Positions 6,849 through 57,405 of a stretch of 64,000 nucleotides of DNA are shown one piece after another. The stretch covers positions 1-64,000 of the forward strand of contig MEFD01000022.1 in NCBI GenBank assembly GCA_001724995.1, given 5' to 3'. The DNA is from Rubrivivax sp. SCN 71-131. Its GTDB lineage: Bacteria > Pseudomonadota > Gammaproteobacteria > Burkholderiales > Burkholderiaceae_C. Position 1 is the first letter of the stretch, and every line of letters starts with the position of its first letter. The position numbers and the translations under genes are program-made. The notes beneath the pieces are model-generated. The model did not search any database. It had not been told where the DNA came from and worked only from the letters and a program-made list of their open reading frames with translations.

Positions 6849-7217
6849 ATGTCCAAGCGCAAGCCCGCAGCGAGCGGTGCACCGCACCCGGGCCGCGGCG
6901 CGGCGCGGGCCGCAGGCCCGGCCCTGGGCCTGGCCGACGCGCTCGACCGCAGCGAACCGCTCGGGCTCCTGTTGCGCCGCCTGCACCAGGCACGCACGCT
7001 GTTCGAGGCGCTGGCCCCACTGCTGCCCGCAGGCCTGCGCGCCGACGTGCGCCCGGGCCCGGTGGACGGGGACACCTGGACCCTGCTCGCAGCGCACAAC
7101 CCCGCCGCGGCCAAGCTGCGCCAGTTGCTGCCCCTGCTGCTGCAGCGCCTGCAGGAGACGGGGTGGGAGGGTAGCGCAATCAGGGTGCGGGTTCAACCGC
7201 CCTCCCCGCCGCTCTGA
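6849..7217 (+). CDS. dciA: DciA-like DUF721 protein
   Basis: 122 residues. After a basic, disordered N-terminus (about 1-25) comes a compact DUF721 domain with LGLADALDRS, an LLRRLHQAR helix and a WTLLAAHNPAAAKLRQLLP segment, ending in a Pro-rich tail. DUF721/DciA is the ancestral loader of the DnaB replicative helicase in bacteria without DnaC. The short betaproteobacterial forms carry the same domain near the C-terminus. Its place beside secA and an M23 peptidase matches its usual neighbourhood. The ATG at 6849 has only a weak Shine-Dalgarno site because its leader is squeezed into 20 bp shared with the divergent peptidase gene. Confidence 0.75.
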   Translation: MSKRKPAASGAPHPGRGAARAAGPALGLADALDRSEPLGLLLRRLHQARTLFEALAPLLPAGLRADVRPGPVDGDTWTLLAAHNPAAAKLRQLLPLLLQRLQETGWEGSAIRVRVQPPSPPL

Positions 7218-7384
7218 AAGCGCCCGCAACAGCCGCATGCCGCGGCAGCCTGCGTCACCGCATTCTTCGTGCCGCCGATGGCGATCTCGATCTCGGGCCG
7301 GACGCCCGACAGCCTGCCGACGGCACAGGCGCTCGAGGCTGCCGGCGATCTCGGCCTCACGCATGAACCGGCGCTGGCCTGCGG

Positions 7385-7411
7385 TTGAGCCTTATGAATC
7401 AGGGTTATTAG
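7385..7411 (+). promoter_or_regulatory. Possible sigma-70 promoter upstream of the sulfide dehydrogenase pair
   Basis: TTGAGC (7385-7390) and TATTAG (7406-7411), 15 bp apart, lie in an unusually AT-rich island 75 bp before the cytochrome start. Spacing and matches are mediocre. The rest of 7218-7485 holds no convincing gene, only a short Cys-rich minus-strand frame without a start. Confidence 0.25.
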
Positions 7412-7485
7412 GGGGAGCACTGCGACGGCAGGTTTTCCACAATTGGCGGTGTCCGGCGCCGCGCGCCACCCGCCTTGGAGGGACC

Positions 7486-7800
7486 ATGCACCGATTGACT
7501 CGTCTTCTCGTCGCGCCGGCGTTGCTGCTCGGCGGTTTGAGTCCGGCCTGGGCACAGGACGCGAACCTGGCGCGCAGCCTGGCCGCCACCTGCGCCAACT
7601 GTCACGGCACCAACGGTCAGGCGCGCGGCGACATGACCCCGCTGGCCGGCGTGCCGGCCAACAAGATCATCGCGATGCTGGCCGACTTCAAGAGCGGTGC
7701 GCTGCCGTCGACGATCATGGGCCAGATTGCCAAGGGCTACACCGACGAGCAGGTGCGCCTGCTCGCCGGATTCTTTGCGGCACAACCGGCCAAGCGCTGA
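7486..7800 (+). CDS. fccA: Monoheme class I cytochrome c (FccA-like sulfide dehydrogenase subunit)
   Basis: 104 residues. A clear Sec signal peptide (about 1-24, cleaved after PAWAQ) is followed by a mature domain of about 80 residues with one heme-binding CANCH. A Met in the STIMGQIAKGY segment is the likely distal ligand. It is a periplasmic electron acceptor. The next gene, 9 bp downstream, encodes the FAD-binding sulfide dehydrogenase subunit, so this should be its cytochrome partner carrying electrons from sulfide oxidation to the respiratory chain. GGAGG before ATG 7486 fixes the start. It resembles the single-heme FccA type or one half of a cytochrome c4. Confidence 0.85.
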   Translation: MHRLTRLLVAPALLLGGLSPAWAQDANLARSLAATCANCHGTNGQARGDMTPLAGVPANKIIAMLADFKSGALPSTIMGQIAKGYTDEQVRLLAGFFAAQPAKR

Positions 7801-7809
7801 GGAGATGGC

Positions 7810-9096
7810 ATGAAGCAAGGGTTCGAACTCGGGCGCCGGCATCTGCTGGGCGCTGGCGCCGCGCTGGCGGCCACCACGCTCGCCGGCTGCGCCGGCATGA
7901 CGAGCGGCGGGCCGTCGATCGGCAGGGTCGTGATCGTCGGCGGCGGCTACGGCGGCGCCACCGCAGCGCGCTATCTCAAGCTGTGGGGCGGCAACGTCGA
8001 CGTCACGCTGATCGAGCGCCAGAGTGAATTCGTCTCCTGCCCGATCAGCAACCTGGTGCTCGGCGGCTACAAGACGATGGCCGACATCACCCGGGGTTAC
8101 GGCGGACTGAAGGCGGCCGGAGTCAAGATGGTGCAGGGAGAAGCCGTCGCCGTCGACCCCGGCGCGCGCACGGTGCGCCTGGCGGACGGCCGCACGCTCG
8201 CCTATGACCGGCTGGTGCTGTCGCCCGGCGTCGATTTCATGCTCGACCAGGTCGGTGGCCTGCAGGCGGCGCTGGATGCGGGTCGCGTGTTCCACGCCTG
8301 GAAGGCCGGGCCGCAGACGGCGGCGCTGCGCGGGGCGATCGAGGGCATGCGCGATGGCGGCGTGTTCGCGATGTTCATTCCGAAGGCGCCCTATCGCTGC
8401 CCGCCCGGACCCTACGAGCGCGCCTGCGTCGTCGCCACCTACCTCAAGGCCGCCAAGCCGCGATCCAAGCTGCTGATCTACGACGCCAACCCCGAGATCA
8501 CCTCGAAGAAGGGCCTGTTCCAGAAGGCGTTCAGCGAGCTGCACGCCGGCATCCTCGAGTACCGTCCCAACGCCGAGCTGAAGGAGATCGCGGGCAACGT
8601 CGCCAGGACCGAGTTCGACGACGTCAAGGCCGACGTGATCAACGCGATTCCGCCGCAGCGCGGCGGGGATCTGGCGCGCTCGGCCGGGCTGCTGAACATG
8701 AACGCCCGCTGGGCCGGCGTGAACTGGCTGACGATGGAGTCGACCGCGGTGCCCGGGATCCACGTGCTCGGCGACACCACCTTCTCCGCGCCGCAGATGC
8801 CCAAGTCCGGCCACATGGCGAACCAGCAAGCCAAGGTCGCAGCGGCCGCGATCATCCAGTTGCTCCAGGGCGCGGCGGTGAACCCGGCGCCGGTGGTGAT
8901 GAACACCTGCTACAGCTTCGTCAGCGATCGCGAGGCGATGCACGTGGCCTCGGTGCACCAGTACAACGCGGCCGAAAAGACCTTCAAGACCGTGCCGGGT
9001 TCGGGCGGCGTGTCAGCCGCGCGCAGCCTGAGCGAAGCGCGCCACGCGCTCAGCTGGGCGAACAACATCTGGACCGATTCACTCGCACTGGCCTGA
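7810..9096 (+). CDS. fccB: Flavocytochrome c sulfide dehydrogenase, flavoprotein subunit
   Basis: 428 residues, a periplasmic FAD protein oxidising sulfide to sulfur or polysulfide. A Tat-type signal (GRRHLLG, then an Ala-rich stretch ending AGCAG) occupies about residues 8-30, as in other FccB proteins. A Rossmann FAD motif GGGYGG is at 44-49. Cys77 in VSCPISN corresponds to the conserved Cys region near the flavin, and a second Cys in YRCPPGPYE fits the redox-active pair. The C-terminal flavocytochrome domain is complete (NTCYSF, then WANNIW). It is translated just after the cytochrome gene. No sox, dsr or sulfur-globule genes are visible, so the likely role is sulfide detoxification or supplementary electron supply. 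Confidence 0.92.
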   Translation: MKQGFELGRRHLLGAGAALAATTLAGCAGMTSGGPSIGRVVIVGGGYGGATAARYLKLWGGNVDVTLIERQSEFVSCPISNLVLGGYKTMADITRGYGGLKAAGVKMVQGEAVAVDPGARTVRLADGRTLAYDRLVLSPGVDFMLDQVGGLQAALDAGRVFHAWKAGPQTAALRGAIEGMRDGGVFAMFIPKAPYRCPPGPYERACVVATYLKAAKPRSKLLIYDANPEITSKKGLFQKAFSELHAGILEYRPNAELKEIAGNVARTEFDDVKADVINAIPPQRGGDLARSAGLLNMNARWAGVNWLTMESTAVPGIHVLGDTTFSAPQMPKSGHMANQQAKVAAAAIIQLLQGAAVNPAPVVMNTCYSFVSDREAMHVASVHQYNAAEKTFKTVPGSGGVSAARSLSEARHALSWANNIWTDSLALA

Positions 9097-9268
9097 GCGC
9101 GCGAGCCGCGCGTTGCGGTGCCGTCGGCAATCACACCGAGCCGGGCACCGTCACGCTGCTGATGCGGCACGTCGCACCGCAGGGCAGGTCTCTCGGCCTA
9201 CGCCTTCCCCATGCGGTGCGAGGCCCGCGCTCCTGATGGAGCGCGGCCGGCCGCGCTGTGGCGCTTGC

Positions 9269-9664
9269 TCAGGCCTCGAGCGCGGATAGCGCCTGTTCCA
9301 GGCGCTCGCGGACCTGCGCGGCGAGGGGCGCCACCTTGGGGTTGTCGACCAGCCCCAGCACCGCGTGCGGATCCATCAGCTCGACGTGCACCACCGCCTG
9401 CGCATCCTGGCGCACGACGACATTGCAGGGCAGCAGCGCGCCGATCTGCGGCTCGGCCCCGATCGCCTGGTGCGCGAAGTTGGGGTTGCAGGCGCCGAGG
9501 ATGCGGTAGGGCGGCATGTCGGCATCGAGCTTCTTCTTCATCGTTGCCTGCACGTCGATCTCGGTCAGGATGCCGAAGCCGACCTTGCCCAGCTCCTCGA
9601 CGATGCGCTCGCGTGCGCGCTCGAAACCCAGGGTCGTGGTGCGACCGAATGCGTACTTGCTCAT
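9269..9664 (-). CDS. DUF302 domain protein
   Basis: 131 residues without signal peptide or membrane segment. The whole protein matches the DUF302 fold: an N-terminal YAFGRTTTLGFERA strand-helix, a TEIDVQATMKKKL segment, then YRILGACNPNFAHQA and LLPCNVVV with the paired Cys residues typical of the family. The biochemical function is unknown. Members often sit beside cytochromes and sulfur or metal redox genes, which agrees with the nearby fccAB, but it is convergent with fccB and has its own transcription unit. The ATG is preceded by GGAGG. Confidence 0.85.
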   Translation of the reverse strand: MSKYAFGRTTTLGFERARERIVEELGKVGFGILTEIDVQATMKKKLDADMPPYRILGACNPNFAHQAIGAEPQIGALLPCNVVVRQDAQAVVHVELMDPHAVLGLVDNPKVAPLAAQVRERLEQALSALEA

Positions 9665-9689
9665 GGGCGTCCTCCAGCGGAAATGGGGT

Positions 9690-9765
9690 TGGTGCCGGCT
9701 ATCCGAATCGAACGGATGACCTTCCGCTTACAAGGCGGGTGCTCTACCAGCTGAGCTAAGCCGGC
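9690..9765 (-). tRNA. tRNA-Thr (anticodon UGU)
   Basis: The minus strand folds into a 76-nt cloverleaf starting GCCGGCTTAGCTCAG, with an acceptor stem GCCGGC/GCCGGC, a D-loop with GGTAGA, anticodon loop CTTGTAA (anticodon TGT), T-loop TTCGATT and an encoded CCA end. It closely resembles bacterial tRNA-Thr. The first anticodon-stem pair is a C-A mismatch (positions 27/43). No other tRNA was found in the window. Confidence 0.95.
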
Positions 9766-18293: not shown

Positions 18294-19039
18294 GCCGGGT
18301 TGTCGATCTCGATGAAGCGGTGCTCGAGCCCGAAGCGCGCCGCGATGTGCGTCGCCACCGCTGGCGCGCCGTAGCGTTCGCTCGCGTGGTGACCGCAGGC
18401 GAGGAAGGCCACGCCCGTCTCCCGCGCCAGGTGCGCCTGCGGCTCCGAAATCTCGCCGGTGAAGAAGGCGTCGGCCCCGGCGGCGATCGCCGCCTCGAAG
18501 AAGCCCTGCGCGCCGCCGCTGCACCAGGCCACGCGCCGCAGCGGCCGCCCGTCGCCGGGCAGCAGCAGCGGCGCGCGCGCGAGCACCCGTGCCACCCGCG
18601 CCGCCAGCGCGGCCGTGTCGGCGAGCCCGGCGGCCGCGCCGATGAAGCCCAGATCCTGCTCTCCGAAACGGGCGTCGGCGACGAGCCCCAGGCGCAGGCC
18701 GAGCTGCGCGTTGTTGCCGAACTCGGCCTGCGCGTCCAGCGGCAGGTGGTAGGCAAAGAGGTTGATGTCATGCGCCAGCAGCCGCGCCACGCGCTCCTTC
18801 AGCCAGCCGACCAGGCGCCCGTCCTGCCCGCGCCAGAACAGTCCGTGGTGCACGAGCAGCGTGTCGGCGCCGGCTTCGATGGCGGCGTCGATGAAGGCCA
18901 GACTTGCCGTCACGCCACTGGCCAGACGCCGCACCTCGCGCCGGCCCTCGACCTGCAGGCCGTTCGGGCCGTAGTCCTTGAAGGCCTCGGGTTGCAGCAA
19001 CTCGGCAAGCGCCGCTTCGATCCGTCCACGCTCGGCCAT
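18290..19039 (-). CDS. Nif3-like dinuclear metal centre protein
   Basis: 249 residues spanning the whole NIF3 family fold. Conserved metal-binding pieces are LLVHHGLFW (His-His), the AYHLPLDAQ segment and, near the end, TGEISEPQ and LACGHHASER. Family members form toroidal hexamers with two metal ions per subunit. The proposed GTP cyclohydrolase or hydrolase activities are not settled, so no function is asserted. The start MAERGRIE is chosen because it matches homologues. The frame runs on upstream toward tatC without support. It is coupled to pdxA by a 4-bp overlap and lies 49 bp after tatC. Confidence 0.9.
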   Translation of the reverse strand: MAERGRIEAALAELLQPEAFKDYGPNGLQVEGRREVRRLASGVTASLAFIDAAIEAGADTLLVHHGLFWRGQDGRLVGWLKERVARLLAHDINLFAYHLPLDAQAEFGNNAQLGLRLGLVADARFGEQDLGFIGAAAGLADTAALAARVARVLARAPLLLPGDGRPLRRVAWCSGGAQGFFEAAIAAGADAFFTGEISEPQAHLARETGVAFLACGHHASERYGAPAVATHIAARFGLEHRFIEIDNPA

Positions 19040-19088
19040 GCGGGATGACTCCTCGGACGATGTGCGCCGCGCGATGCCCGGCGCTGCT

Positions 19089-19883
19089 CTAGGTCTTGCT
19101 GCCGTCGGCCTCGCCATCCGGCAGCGCGGCGTTCCTGATGAACATGCCGGCAGCCAGGATGCCGAGTTCGTAGAGGATGCACATCGGCACCGCCAGCGCG
19201 AGCTGGGAGATCACGTCCGGCGGCGTGACGACCGCCGCGACGATGAAGGCGCCGACGATGAAGTAGCCGCGGAACTTCTTCAACTGCTCGATGGTGACGA
19301 TGCCCACGCGCGCCAGCACGACGACCGCGATCGGCACCTCGAAGGCGATGCCGAAGACGAGGAAGAGCGTGAGCACGAAGCCGAAGTACTGCTCGATGTC
19401 CGGCGCCGCGGTGATGGCGCTGGGTGCGAACGCCTGGATGAACTTCGACATCGCCGGGATGACGAGAAAATAGCAGAAGGCCACGCCGATGAAGAAGAGG
19501 ATGGTGCTGCTGATCACCAGCGGCAGCACGAACTTCTTCTCGTGCGAGTACAGCCCCGGCGCGACGAAGGCCCAGACCTGGTAGAGCACGTAGGGCAGCA
19601 CGACGAAGAAGGCCGCCATCAGCGTGATCTTCAGCGGCACCAGCACCGGCGAGATGACGCTGGTGGCGATCAGCCGCGTGCCCTCGGGCAGATGCGCCAC
19701 CAGCGGCTGCGCGAGGAAGTCGTACAGCGCGCCCATCCCCGGCCAGAAGGCGAGCACGCCGAAGGCGATCATCACCGCGACGAGCGCGCGGATGATGCGG
19801 TCGCGCAGCTCGACGAGATGCGAGACGAACGGCGCCTCGGTGCCGGCCAGTTCGTCCTCGGTGTCCTTGCGCTCCTCGCTCAC
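19089..19883 (-). CDS. tatC: Twin-arginine translocase subunit TatC
   Basis: 264 residues with six transmembrane helices and the TatC signatures ([12 protein letters not shown] near the start, [13 protein letters not shown], then [24 protein letters not shown]). TatC is the receptor for twin-arginine signal peptides in the cytoplasmic membrane. The start is a GTG overlapping the tatB stop (GTGA). A longer frame upstream only runs through tatB. Tat substrates within this window plausibly include the Rieske protein and FccB. Confidence 0.97.
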
Positions 19884-23202: not shown

Positions 23203-23246
23203 GCAGGAAGTTTAGGCCGCCGCCGCAGCGCGGCGGCCCGGCGCCC

Positions 23247-23903
23247 TCAGCTCGTCAGCCGCTGCAGCGGCACTTCCAGGGCTTCGGTCGGCATGCGCCT
23301 GAAGCCCGAGCGCGCGTAGCGCTGCAGCCTGCCGACGATGAGCGCGGTCAGCGCCGAGGCCATCGCATGCGCATCCGCCGTGGGCGTGTTCGAGCCCTGC
23401 GCCTGCGCGCCCAGGCGCAGGCACTGGCGCAACTGCGATTCGACGCGGTCGAAGAACTGGTTCATGCGCTGCGTCAGGCGCTCGTGCTCGAAGACGAGGG
23501 CGTCGCCGACCATGACGCGCGTCATGCCCGGGTTCTTCTCGCCGAACTGCAGCAGCATGAGCACGATGCGCTGCGCCTGCAGCGCGCCGGATTCGTCGCG
23601 CTCGACGATCTGGTTGACGAGCGCGAACACGCTCGCCTCGATGAACTCGATCAGGCCTTCGAACATCTGCGCCTTGCTGGCGAAGTGTCGGTAGAGCGCG
23701 GCCTCGGAGACTTCGAGCCGGGACGCCAGCGCCGCGGTCGTGATGCGCTCGGCCCCCGGCTGCTCGAGCATGCCGGCCAGCGTCTGCAGAATCTGCACAC
23801 GCCGCTCGCCGGGCCGCGGGCGCTTGCGTACCGGCGTCGCAGGAGCCGGATCTGCAGCAGGCTCGGCTTCGGCGCCGACCGGTTCGGGCATCGTGTCGGA
23901 CAT
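23247..23903 (-). CDS. slmA: TetR-type nucleoid occlusion factor SlmA
   Basis: 218 residues. After a disordered Pro/Ala-rich N-terminus (1-28) is a TetR helix-turn-helix (RRVQILQTLAGML, ITTAALASRLEVSEAALYRHF) and a ligand/dimer domain. The SlmA-type KAQMFEGLIEFIE and NPGMTRVMVGDALVFEHERL segments separate it from ordinary TetR repressors. SlmA binds chromosomal sites and blocks FtsZ assembly over the nucleoid. Start chosen at 23903 (MSDTMPEP). A second Met four codons on is possible. The argB-HAD-slmA order is usual in this group. Confidence 0.9.
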   Translation of the reverse strand: MSDTMPEPVGAEAEPAADPAPATPVRKRPRPGERRVQILQTLAGMLEQPGAERITTAALASRLEVSEAALYRHFASKAQMFEGLIEFIEASVFALVNQIVERDESGALQAQRIVLMLLQFGEKNPGMTRVMVGDALVFEHERLTQRMNQFFDRVESQLRQCLRLGAQAQGSNTPTADAHAMASALTALIVGRLQRYARSGFRRMPTEALEVPLQRLTS

Positions 23904-55244: not shown

Positions 55245-56756
55245 ATGGAGACCGCCTTCGTCCAGACCACGGTCGATGCGTCGGCGGCCGTCGTGCCGCC
55301 GGCCGTCGTGCCGTCGGCCGCCGTCGCGCCGTCCCTGCTCGGGCGCGAGCGTTCCATCCTCGAGTTCAACCGCCGCGTGCTCGCGCAGGCGCAGCGCGCA
55401 GATGTGCCGCTGCTCGAGCGACTGCGCTACATCACGATCGTCTCGTCGAATCTCGACGGGTTCTTCGAGGTCCGCTTCGCCGACTTCGCCGAGCGCGACG
55501 CGCCCCAGCGCGAGTGGGTCGCCCGCTTCTTCGAGTCGCAGGTGCGGCCGCTGCTGGTGCCGATCGGGCTCGACCCGGCGCACCCGTTCCCGCAGGTCGC
55601 GAACAAGTCGCTGAACTTCATCGTCCAGCTCGACGGGCGCGACGCCTTCGGGCGGCGCAACGCGATCGCGATCGTCAAGGTGCCTCGCGTGCTGCCGCGG
55701 GTGATCCGCCTGCCCGACGCGCTGACCGGCGGCCGCCAGGGCTTCGTCCTGCTGTCGAGCGTCATACGTGCGCACCTCGGGTCGCTGTTCGGCGGCCGCA
55801 CCGTGGTCGCGTTCTCGCAGTTCCGTGTCACCCGCGACTCCGAGCTCGAGGTCGACGACGAGGAGGTGACGAACCTGCGCCAGGCGCTGCGTTCGGGGCT
55901 GACGACGCGGCATTTCGGGAAGGCGATCCGCCTCGAGGTCGTGACGAGCTGCCCGCCGCCGCTGTCGGCCTTCCTGCTGCAGCAGTTCGGGCTCGGCGAG
56001 GCGGCGCGGCGCGGCAAGGAGGTCACGGTCGTCGTCGAGCTGAAGGCGCGCTTCGACGAGGAGGCGAACATCAACTGGGCCGAGCGGCTCGAGGCGGTCG
56101 GCGCGCAGGTGGTCTACGGCATCGTCGGACTGAAGACGCATGCCAAGCTGCTGCTGATCACGCGCCGCGAGGGTGCCGGGCGCAGCACCGCGGTGCTGCG
56201 CCGCTACGCGCACCTGTCGACCGGCAACTACAACGCGCGCATCGTCGTCAAGTGCAACGCCCTGACCGACCCGACACCGATCCAGGCGCTGGTGCGGGCG
56301 TCGCAGGCCGGGGCGCGCATCGACCTCGTCGTGCGCGGCGCCTGCATGCTGGCGCCCGGCGTCCAGGGCACGACCGCGAACGTGCGCGTGCGCTCGATCG
56401 TCGGCCGCTTCCTCGAGCATTCGCGCGTCCTCTCCAGTCCGGCGCGACGCGCGCAGCAGACCGCGAGGGCGCTCGACCGCAGCTTTCGCAGCGTCGACGC
56501 GCTGGCGCCCGACGGCAGCGTCGCCGGGCTGCTCGACGCTGCGCGCTGGCACGATTCGCGCGTCGCGGTGCTCGTGGTCGGCCACCAGCCGACGCTCGGG
56601 CTGGTCGCCGCGCAGCTGGTGGGCGGCCTCGATCCGGCAGCGACGCTGCCGTGGCGGATCAAGAAGGGCGGCGTCTGGTGGCTGCGCACGCGCGGGAACG
56701 GCGACGGCGGCCCGCCGCTGACGGTGCTCGCGGTGCGCTCGCCCGATCTGCTGTAG
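55245..56756 (+). CDS. Internally deleted polyphosphate kinase 1 fused to a SixA-type phosphatase tail
   Basis: 503 residues in one frame. Residues 33-80 are the PPK1 N-domain start (LEFNRRVLAQAQRADVPLLE, SSNLDGFFEVR; the usual Glu after SNLD is Gly). Residues 86-250 resume later in the N/H domains, 253-330 carry the C1 segment with the autophosphorylated-type His299 (GLKTHAKLLLI), and 331-395 the C2 segment (VRGACML, His392 in RFLEHSRV). Family blocks normally lying between these, and the true C-terminus, are missing. From 396 on (LSSPARRAQQTA, VGHQPTLG, KKGGVWWL) it is the back half of SixA, without the N-terminal RHG catalytic motif. Probably inactive, or an unusual chimera. It starts 7 bp after a Pho-box-like array. 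Domain boundaries come from memory of PPK1. Confidence 0.8.
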   Translation: METAFVQTTVDASAAVVPPAVVPSAAVAPSLLGRERSILEFNRRVLAQAQRADVPLLERLRYITIVSSNLDGFFEVRFADFAERDAPQREWVARFFESQVRPLLVPIGLDPAHPFPQVANKSLNFIVQLDGRDAFGRRNAIAIVKVPRVLPRVIRLPDALTGGRQGFVLLSSVIRAHLGSLFGGRTVVAFSQFRVTRDSELEVDDEEVTNLRQALRSGLTTRHFGKAIRLEVVTSCPPPLSAFLLQQFGLGEAARRGKEVTVVVELKARFDEEANINWAERLEAVGAQVVYGIVGLKTHAKLLLITRREGAGRSTAVLRRYAHLSTGNYNARIVVKCNALTDPTPIQALVRASQAGARIDLVVRGACMLAPGVQGTTANVRVRSIVGRFLEHSRVLSSPARRAQQTARALDRSFRSVDALAPDGSVAGLLDAARWHDSRVAVLVVGHQPTLGLVAAQLVGGLDPAATLPWRIKKGGVWWLRTRGNGDGGPPLTVLAVRSPDLL

Positions 56757-56780: not shown

Positions 56781-57405
56781 CTACGCGGCGGCGGTTTCGG
56801 GCTCGCACACCGACAGGCCGAGCGCGCTGCCGCGCTGCCACGCCAGTACCTCCTCGCGCAACAGGTGCAGCGTGCGCAGGTCGACCGCGCCGGCGGTGTC
56901 GAAGCGCAGCTCGGCGGCATTCGGCCCGCGCTTCAGCCGCCAACCCGCCGGCGCGTCGGCGCGCGCGTGGCAGGTGATCGCCGCCAGCCGCAGGCACAGC
57001 AGCTGCCAGCGGCGATCGGGATGGGCGAGCGTCGGCTCGACCTTGCGCAGGCCGCCGCGCTGGCCGAGCACCAGCGCGCCGAGATGGCGCTGCTGGTCCT
57101 GCGAGAAGCCGGGGGCGTCGGCATGCGCCACCAGATAGGCCCCATGCCGGTGGTGGTCGTGGTGCGAGACGACGAGGCCCAGCTCGTGCAGCGCCGCCGC
57201 CCAGCCGAGCTCGCGCCGGCGCCCGCCCGCGCCCTGGGCGGCGCTCGGCGTCGAGCCCGCCGCCCAGGCGCACCGTCTCCTTCAGGTAGTCGACGCGCCG
57301 GTAGCGGCCATGCTCGAGGCGTCCGATCTCGAGGCGAAAGCTGTTCGATCCGAGGTCGATCGCGGCGAGCGGCGCGGCCGGCAGGCGAACGCGTGCGGGA
57401 AGCAT
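56781..57405 (-). pseudogene. Exopolyphosphatase (Ppx/GppA) remnant: both ends, middle lost, frameshifted
   Basis: From ATG 57405 the minus strand encodes a good Ppx N-terminus (LAAIDLGSNSFRLEIGRLE, then VDYLKETVRLGGGLDAE). Near 57220-57250, in a very GC-rich stretch, the reading frame must change. The next frame gives the Ppx C-terminal part (LGWAAALHELGLVVSHHDHH, HADAPGFSQ, LVLGQRGGLRKVE, LCLRLAAI, LRTLHLL) ending at TAG 56781. The ASKHA catalytic core between, roughly 300 residues, is absent. Convergent with the PPK1-SixA fusion. An in-frame leader (57406-57567) has no recognisable identity. Confidence 0.8.

Follow-up and report, generated by a model that had tools for sequence, protein, structure and literature searches.

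In the PPK of Escherichia coli, His435 is the autophosphorylation site and four domains shape the active-site tunnel (PMC4400040). In several relatives of the genome studied here, ppk1 is followed by sixA and by a convergent ppx on the minus strand (ppk1 > sixA > < ppx), which we consider the original order of the locus. We take His592 of the E. coli enzyme to be the second catalytic histidine of PPK1, and the histidine of the RHA motif to be the catalytic one of SixA. No PPK1-SixA fusion is named among the titles listed in a limited literature search on SixA and ppk.

The window we have analyzed covers 64,000 nt from the start of contig C22 in a draft genome (3.9 Mb, 43 contigs, 98.19% complete). 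Within about 1.8 kb of it, three adjoining genes, ppk1, sixA, and ppx, lack five blocks with sizes of 156 to about 900 bp; two of these genes belong to polyphosphate metabolism, and the rest of the sequence is otherwise well kept. The locus suggests an assembly fault in this region, or very recent deletions in a burst, rather than a new fused enzyme.

Structure of the ppk1-sixA-ppx locus

The first-pass annotation had described a gapped PPK1 frame fused to half of a SixA, an observation which we confirm and extend to ppx. The frame (55245–56756, plus strand) is 503 aa long and open, without any internal stop. Its junctions were placed by DNA alignment with eight loci of the same genus; for junction 4, we used the six of these eight in which sixA is the next gene after ppk1. 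The alignment, which narrows junctions 2 and 3 down to 55987–55990 and 56233–56234, puts them at chimera residues about 80, 248, 330, and 396, as compared with about 80, 250, 330, and 395 in the annotation: Three blocks are missing inside ppk1, all of them multiples of three with respect to the eight loci, and the next loss runs into sixA (Table 1). There is also a fifth loss, overlooked in the annotation: The neighbouring ppx gene, on the minus strand, has its two halves in different frames.

Table 1. Retained blocks and junctions in the ppk1-sixA-ppx locus (window positions).
Feature	Position	Strand	Comparison with models and relatives
PPK1 block 1 (chimera residues 1–80; part of the N-terminal domain)	55245..55485	+	PF13089 at chimera residues 33–83; R. 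gelatinosus PPK1 residues 13–75
Junction 1	55482..55487	+	156 bp missing vs seven relatives, 162 vs one
PPK1 block 2 (middle domain)	55488..55990	+	PF02503 at chimera residues 88–253; 74% identity, R. gelatinosus residues 125–294
Junction 2	55987..55996	+	309–321 bp missing vs eight relatives
PPK1 block 3, THAK histidine motif	55995..56234	+	PF17941; 86% identity, R. gelatinosus residues 398–474
Junction 3	56233..56240	+	207 bp missing vs seven relatives, 204 vs one
PPK1 block 4, LEHSRV histidine motif	56235..56432	+	PF13090; 74% identity, R. gelatinosus residues 541–606
Junction 4	56419..56435	+	431–454 bp missing vs six relatives, from the 3' end of ppk1 through the front half of sixA
sixA back half and stop	56434..56756	+	TIGR00249 positions 44–128 of 154; match to sixA of relative locus L114
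ppx 3' part	56781..57236	-	R. gelatinosus PPX residues 359–497, 59% identity
Junction 5	57219..57249	-	894–908 bp missing vs four loci; frame changes
ppx 5' part	57244..57396	-	R. gelatinosus PPX residues 7–57

The chimera shares four collinear blocks with the PPK1 of R. gelatinosus (74–86% identity). When E. coli PPK (1xdo) is aligned to it, chain residues 8–60, 115–273, 387–463, and 530–595 are matched; residues about 61–114, 274–386, and 464–529, and all those past about 595, are lacking. Compared with a full-length PPK1 (four domains, about 690 aa, a score above the cut-off), four blocks are missing: All four PPK1 Pfam domains are present in the frame, each of them partial, and TIGR03705 (NCBIfam PPK1) gives 451.5 bits in four separate stretches, versus a cut-off of 465.85. 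Both PPK1 histidine motifs are kept, as the annotation had stated. H299 and H392, at the positions equivalent to the two E. coli histidines, are found in columns which are invariant over 22 aligned sequences.

In SixA, only the back half is left. The TIGR00249 match begins at model position 44, so the N-terminal motif is indeed lost with the front half of the gene; the sixA of the relative does have the corresponding RHA motif. The score of this match is 39.4 bits, below the cut-off of 74.5 for membership. Since every PPK1 domain is incomplete and the SixA front half is missing, neither PPK1 nor SixA activity would be expected from the chimera. In particular, an intact PPK1 active-site tunnel is not to be expected when parts of every domain are gone, despite the conservation of both histidine motifs. 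If the sequence is real, what it encodes (503 aa) would most likely be a dead remnant of PPK1.

Short direct repeats and the open frame

According to the first-pass annotation, three deletions and a fusion which all preserve the frame would not come from random decay. As an argument for selection, this fails: About three quarters of short direct repeats in ppk1 of this genus are in phase, and the loss in ppx is out of frame. The genes of the locus are GC3-rich. Among short direct repeats found 100–500 bp apart in ppk1, 73–84% are in phase in the eight loci; within ppk1, using the exact ORFs of six loci, the share is 75–76%. Between ppk1 and sixA it is 68–70%, and within one ppx, for a spacing of 700–1000 bp, 57–68%. 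The probability that at least four of five joins are in phase is about 0.63 at 0.75 per join, versus 0.045 at one third, which corresponds to random joins. In-phase joining is thus expected if the joins fall on short repeats, and in that case the open frame says nothing about selection.

That the joins do fall on short repeats is only suggested by the alignments to relatives, in which the flanks share short words at junctions 1–4. In a comparison with background which covered junctions 1–3, 9 of 12 bases match at junctions 1 and 2 in some relatives, a value reached by 2.5–7% of comparable places. In other relatives, and at junction 3 (where two relatives were skipped), the overlap is unremarkable.

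Extent of the losses in the genome and in the genus

In order to cover more than the window, we predicted 845 ORFs in 1.275 Mb of R. gelatinosus and compared them with 1.28 Mb of our genome, a third of the total. We obtained 185 orthologue-like matches with 65,463 aligned residues. Among these 185 genes, gaps or splits with well-matched flanks are found in ppk1 and ppx only; this count covers gaps internal to the genes, within the best HSP or among chained HSPs, and not losses at gene ends. A first pass on 0.88 Mb gave the same outcome. The losses therefore exceed ordinary divergence and, as far as the sampled third shows, their cause is local. A genome-wide deletion artefact is unsupported in this third.

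Queries L129 and L225 also show gaps of 16 aa, but there the flanks match poorly. A possible frameshift was flagged in two HSP pairs, L152 and L136; in L152, an ATPase-like frame runs into a stop and the following one continues, which may simply correspond to two genes. The reverse comparison, of our genes with R. gelatinosus in the first, smaller sample, yielded a single split of 55 bp together with two gaps, of 12 and 16 aa. In the relative stretches compared, ORFs which match the window are split at ppk1 and ppx only. Nineteen of the 44 matched places in the window were flagged as partial, three of them at the ppk1-sixA-ppx locus; many of the other flags probably stem from choosing the earliest possible start codon for the ORF of the relative.

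The window also differs from its relatives in other places. A DegP/DegQ-like serine protease frame of G024 (L129:18753-19970) is absent at 18999–19098, where G017 also carries about 2.2 kb more; the neighbours (nif3 and tatC, named by eye) match the relatives over their full length. At 23203–23255, about 625–630 bp of both G017 and G024 are absent, with complete neighbours; in G024, this block holds a metallophosphoesterase-like frame (L130:4393-5226, named by eye). On the other hand, 7198–9690 contains about 2.4 kb which are extra with respect to G017 and G024, with cytochrome c-like and flavocytochrome-like frames (named by eye).

Full-length PPK1 and PPX queries do not find the missing ppk1 and ppx blocks anywhere else in the assembly at E values up to 1. 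Their relocation to another place in the genome is thus unsupported; their absence is as expected if they were left unassembled. No PPK2 and no Ppx-GppA domain were found elsewhere in our genome.

Most genomes of the genus do contain the PPK1 middle domain and the Ppx-GppA domain. The PPK1 middle domain is found in 71 of 81 genomes and in 49 of the 53 good ones (our genome is counted as having it), and the Ppx-GppA domain in 70 of 81 and in 50 of 53 (our genome is counted as lacking it). The good genomes without the PPK1 middle domain are G063, G066, G085, and G096; the last two also lack Ppx-GppA. None of the four shows a clear PPK1 remnant, G085 giving a single match at E 0.26. G085 and G096 are 96% and 91% complete: They may have really lost polyphosphate metabolism, or they may be incomplete bins.

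We have not seen the same deletions in any of the 70 other genomes with a match to the PPK1 middle domain. The best PPK1 frame has at least 683 aa in all but three of them: G008 (578 aa), G011 (290 aa), and G043 (445 aa). In G008 and G011, the short frames are found at contig ends. In G043, a single-contig genome of 5.0 Mb, ppk1 (L255 and L257; G043:C1:3612227-3614304) is split into frames of 445 and 317 aa which together make up the whole protein, as if from a small frameshift or a sequencing error. G087 has two further short PPK1 pieces on other contigs.

State of the retained sequence and origin of the losses

The retained PPK1 blocks contain 146 near-invariant positions, defined by at least 97% conservation over 100 distinct relative sequences and the R. 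gelatinosus reference; the relatives come from 104 of 109 loci with a full-length match, some genomes being represented twice. Only one of the 146 is changed in the window protein, while leave-one-out counts for the relatives run from 0 to 14, with a median of 1. The single change, E72 to G (55458–55460), affects the stretch SSNLDEFFEVR and lies some eight residues ahead of junction 1. The dN/dS values of our ppk1 versus eight relatives are 0.23–0.38; pairs of relatives give 0.09–0.50, with a median of 0.31. With a 95% threshold, 2 of 43 near-invariant positions are changed in the retained parts of ppx and 2 of 24 in that of sixA; in both cases the relatives have a median of 0 and a 90th percentile of 2. 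No retained block has a stop in its own frame or other small lesions.

The alignments to intact relatives show ppk1, sixA, and ppx to be disrupted, and what is left of ppk1 looks functional, judging from its residues. Since there is no relaxation in the retained blocks, ppk1 would have worked until very recently, or still does. As these residues match a working PPK1, a new function would have had little time to arise. With such a conserved remainder, and with losses only in ppk1 and ppx among the 185 genes, both slow decay and a long-lived chimera fit poorly.

A local misassembly at a coverage hole is the explanation we consider probable, although by no means certain. Before assembly, the locus would have had intact ppk1, sixA, and ppx genes, arranged as in several relatives. 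A stretch with poor read coverage would have been closed by false joins at short overlaps, and the five blocks would have been dropped from the draft in this way; the organism itself probably still has intact genes. Genome assemblers join tips at about 10 bp. Likewise, rnaSPAdes glues tips with an exact overlap of at least 8 bp and one read pair, and its authors state that smaller overlap thresholds often yield false connections (PMC6736328). We base this explanation on the five losses, their confinement in the sample, the conserved remainder, and the high in-phase share of short repeats; from these we infer that this stretch lacked reads and that the assembler produced the joins. Separate decay should also leave small indels and stops, and none is present, which counts in favor of misassembly. 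Five large losses without small lesions are hard to obtain through separate mutations; a coverage hole closed at overlaps requires a single step.

The locus resembles collapsed assembly gaps in having several losses in one place, well-kept flanks, and mostly in-phase joins. It differs from them in that the overlap at the joins is weak when judged on relatives, and in that the coverage hole is deduced rather than seen. Other facts also speak against misassembly. The assembly is otherwise good, the window contains no N, the sampled third shows no other collapse of this kind, and about 900 bp, as lost from ppx, is a long distance for a library with short inserts. We have considered GC or hairpin dropout as the cause of the hole. 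In R. gelatinosus, the missing and retained ppk1 blocks differ little in GC, GC3 (96–100% versus 92–98%), and mean folding energy (-22.4 versus -21.4), so no cause for a hole is evident from composition or folding.

Real and very recent deletions across ppk1, sixA, and ppx are the chief alternative, although we hold this reading only tentatively. They could be due to one event with several junctions, or to slippage between short repeats that deleted one block after another in quick succession; the short words shared at the joins would also fit such slippage. The result would be a dead locus in a strain without polyphosphate metabolism, the open ppk1-sixA frame being a by-product of in-phase repeats. 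In agreement with this, the losses hit three adjoining genes, two of them functionally linked, and leave the sampled rest of the genome intact; neither PPK2 nor a Ppx-GppA domain is available elsewhere, and G085 and G096 are good genomes which lack both the PPK1 middle domain and Ppx-GppA. However, five losses in a remainder without frameshifts or stops, and with 1 of 146 positions changed, would require several events in a very short time. Moreover, most good genomes of the genus retain PPK1, and those without it hold no comparable remnant.

An old, slowly decaying cluster of pseudogenes is very improbable. All three genes are disrupted, and the changes in ppx and sixA are slightly above the median of the relatives, but these counts equal their 90th percentile, ppk1 shows no relaxation either in near-invariant positions or in dN/dS, and the retained blocks lack small lesions. 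A new PPK1-SixA chimera held by selection is hardly credible: It has a single open frame and both PPK1 histidine motifs in its favor, but portions of all four PPK1 domains and the SixA front half are missing, in-phase joining is expected anyway, a similar loss has broken the neighbouring ppx and put its halves out of frame, and none of the 80 other genomes of the genus has a comparable shortened frame. We find it just as hard to believe that the 503 aa product is real, translated, and retained as a minimal PPK1 scaffold with half a SixA domain, perhaps with a phosphate-binding or regulatory role, in an organism otherwise devoid of PPK1, PPK2, and PPX.

In summary, the chimera interpretation is not supported, and assembly collapse is favoured over very recent real deletion. 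The first-pass annotation had offered a selected chimera and a collapsed assembly as its two readings: The former falls with the frame argument, and the latter, or else very recent real deletions, is better supported. Genome scans should take into account that, in genes with strong GC at the third position, about three quarters of the joins at short repeats remain in phase. Whether such joins are made by the assembler or by the cell, an open frame which spans several missing blocks does not amount to evidence for a chimera under selection. Should the deletions be real, this organism would be devoid of PPK1, PPK2, and PPX, a natural mutant in a genus most of whose good genomes (49 of 53) keep the PPK1 middle domain.
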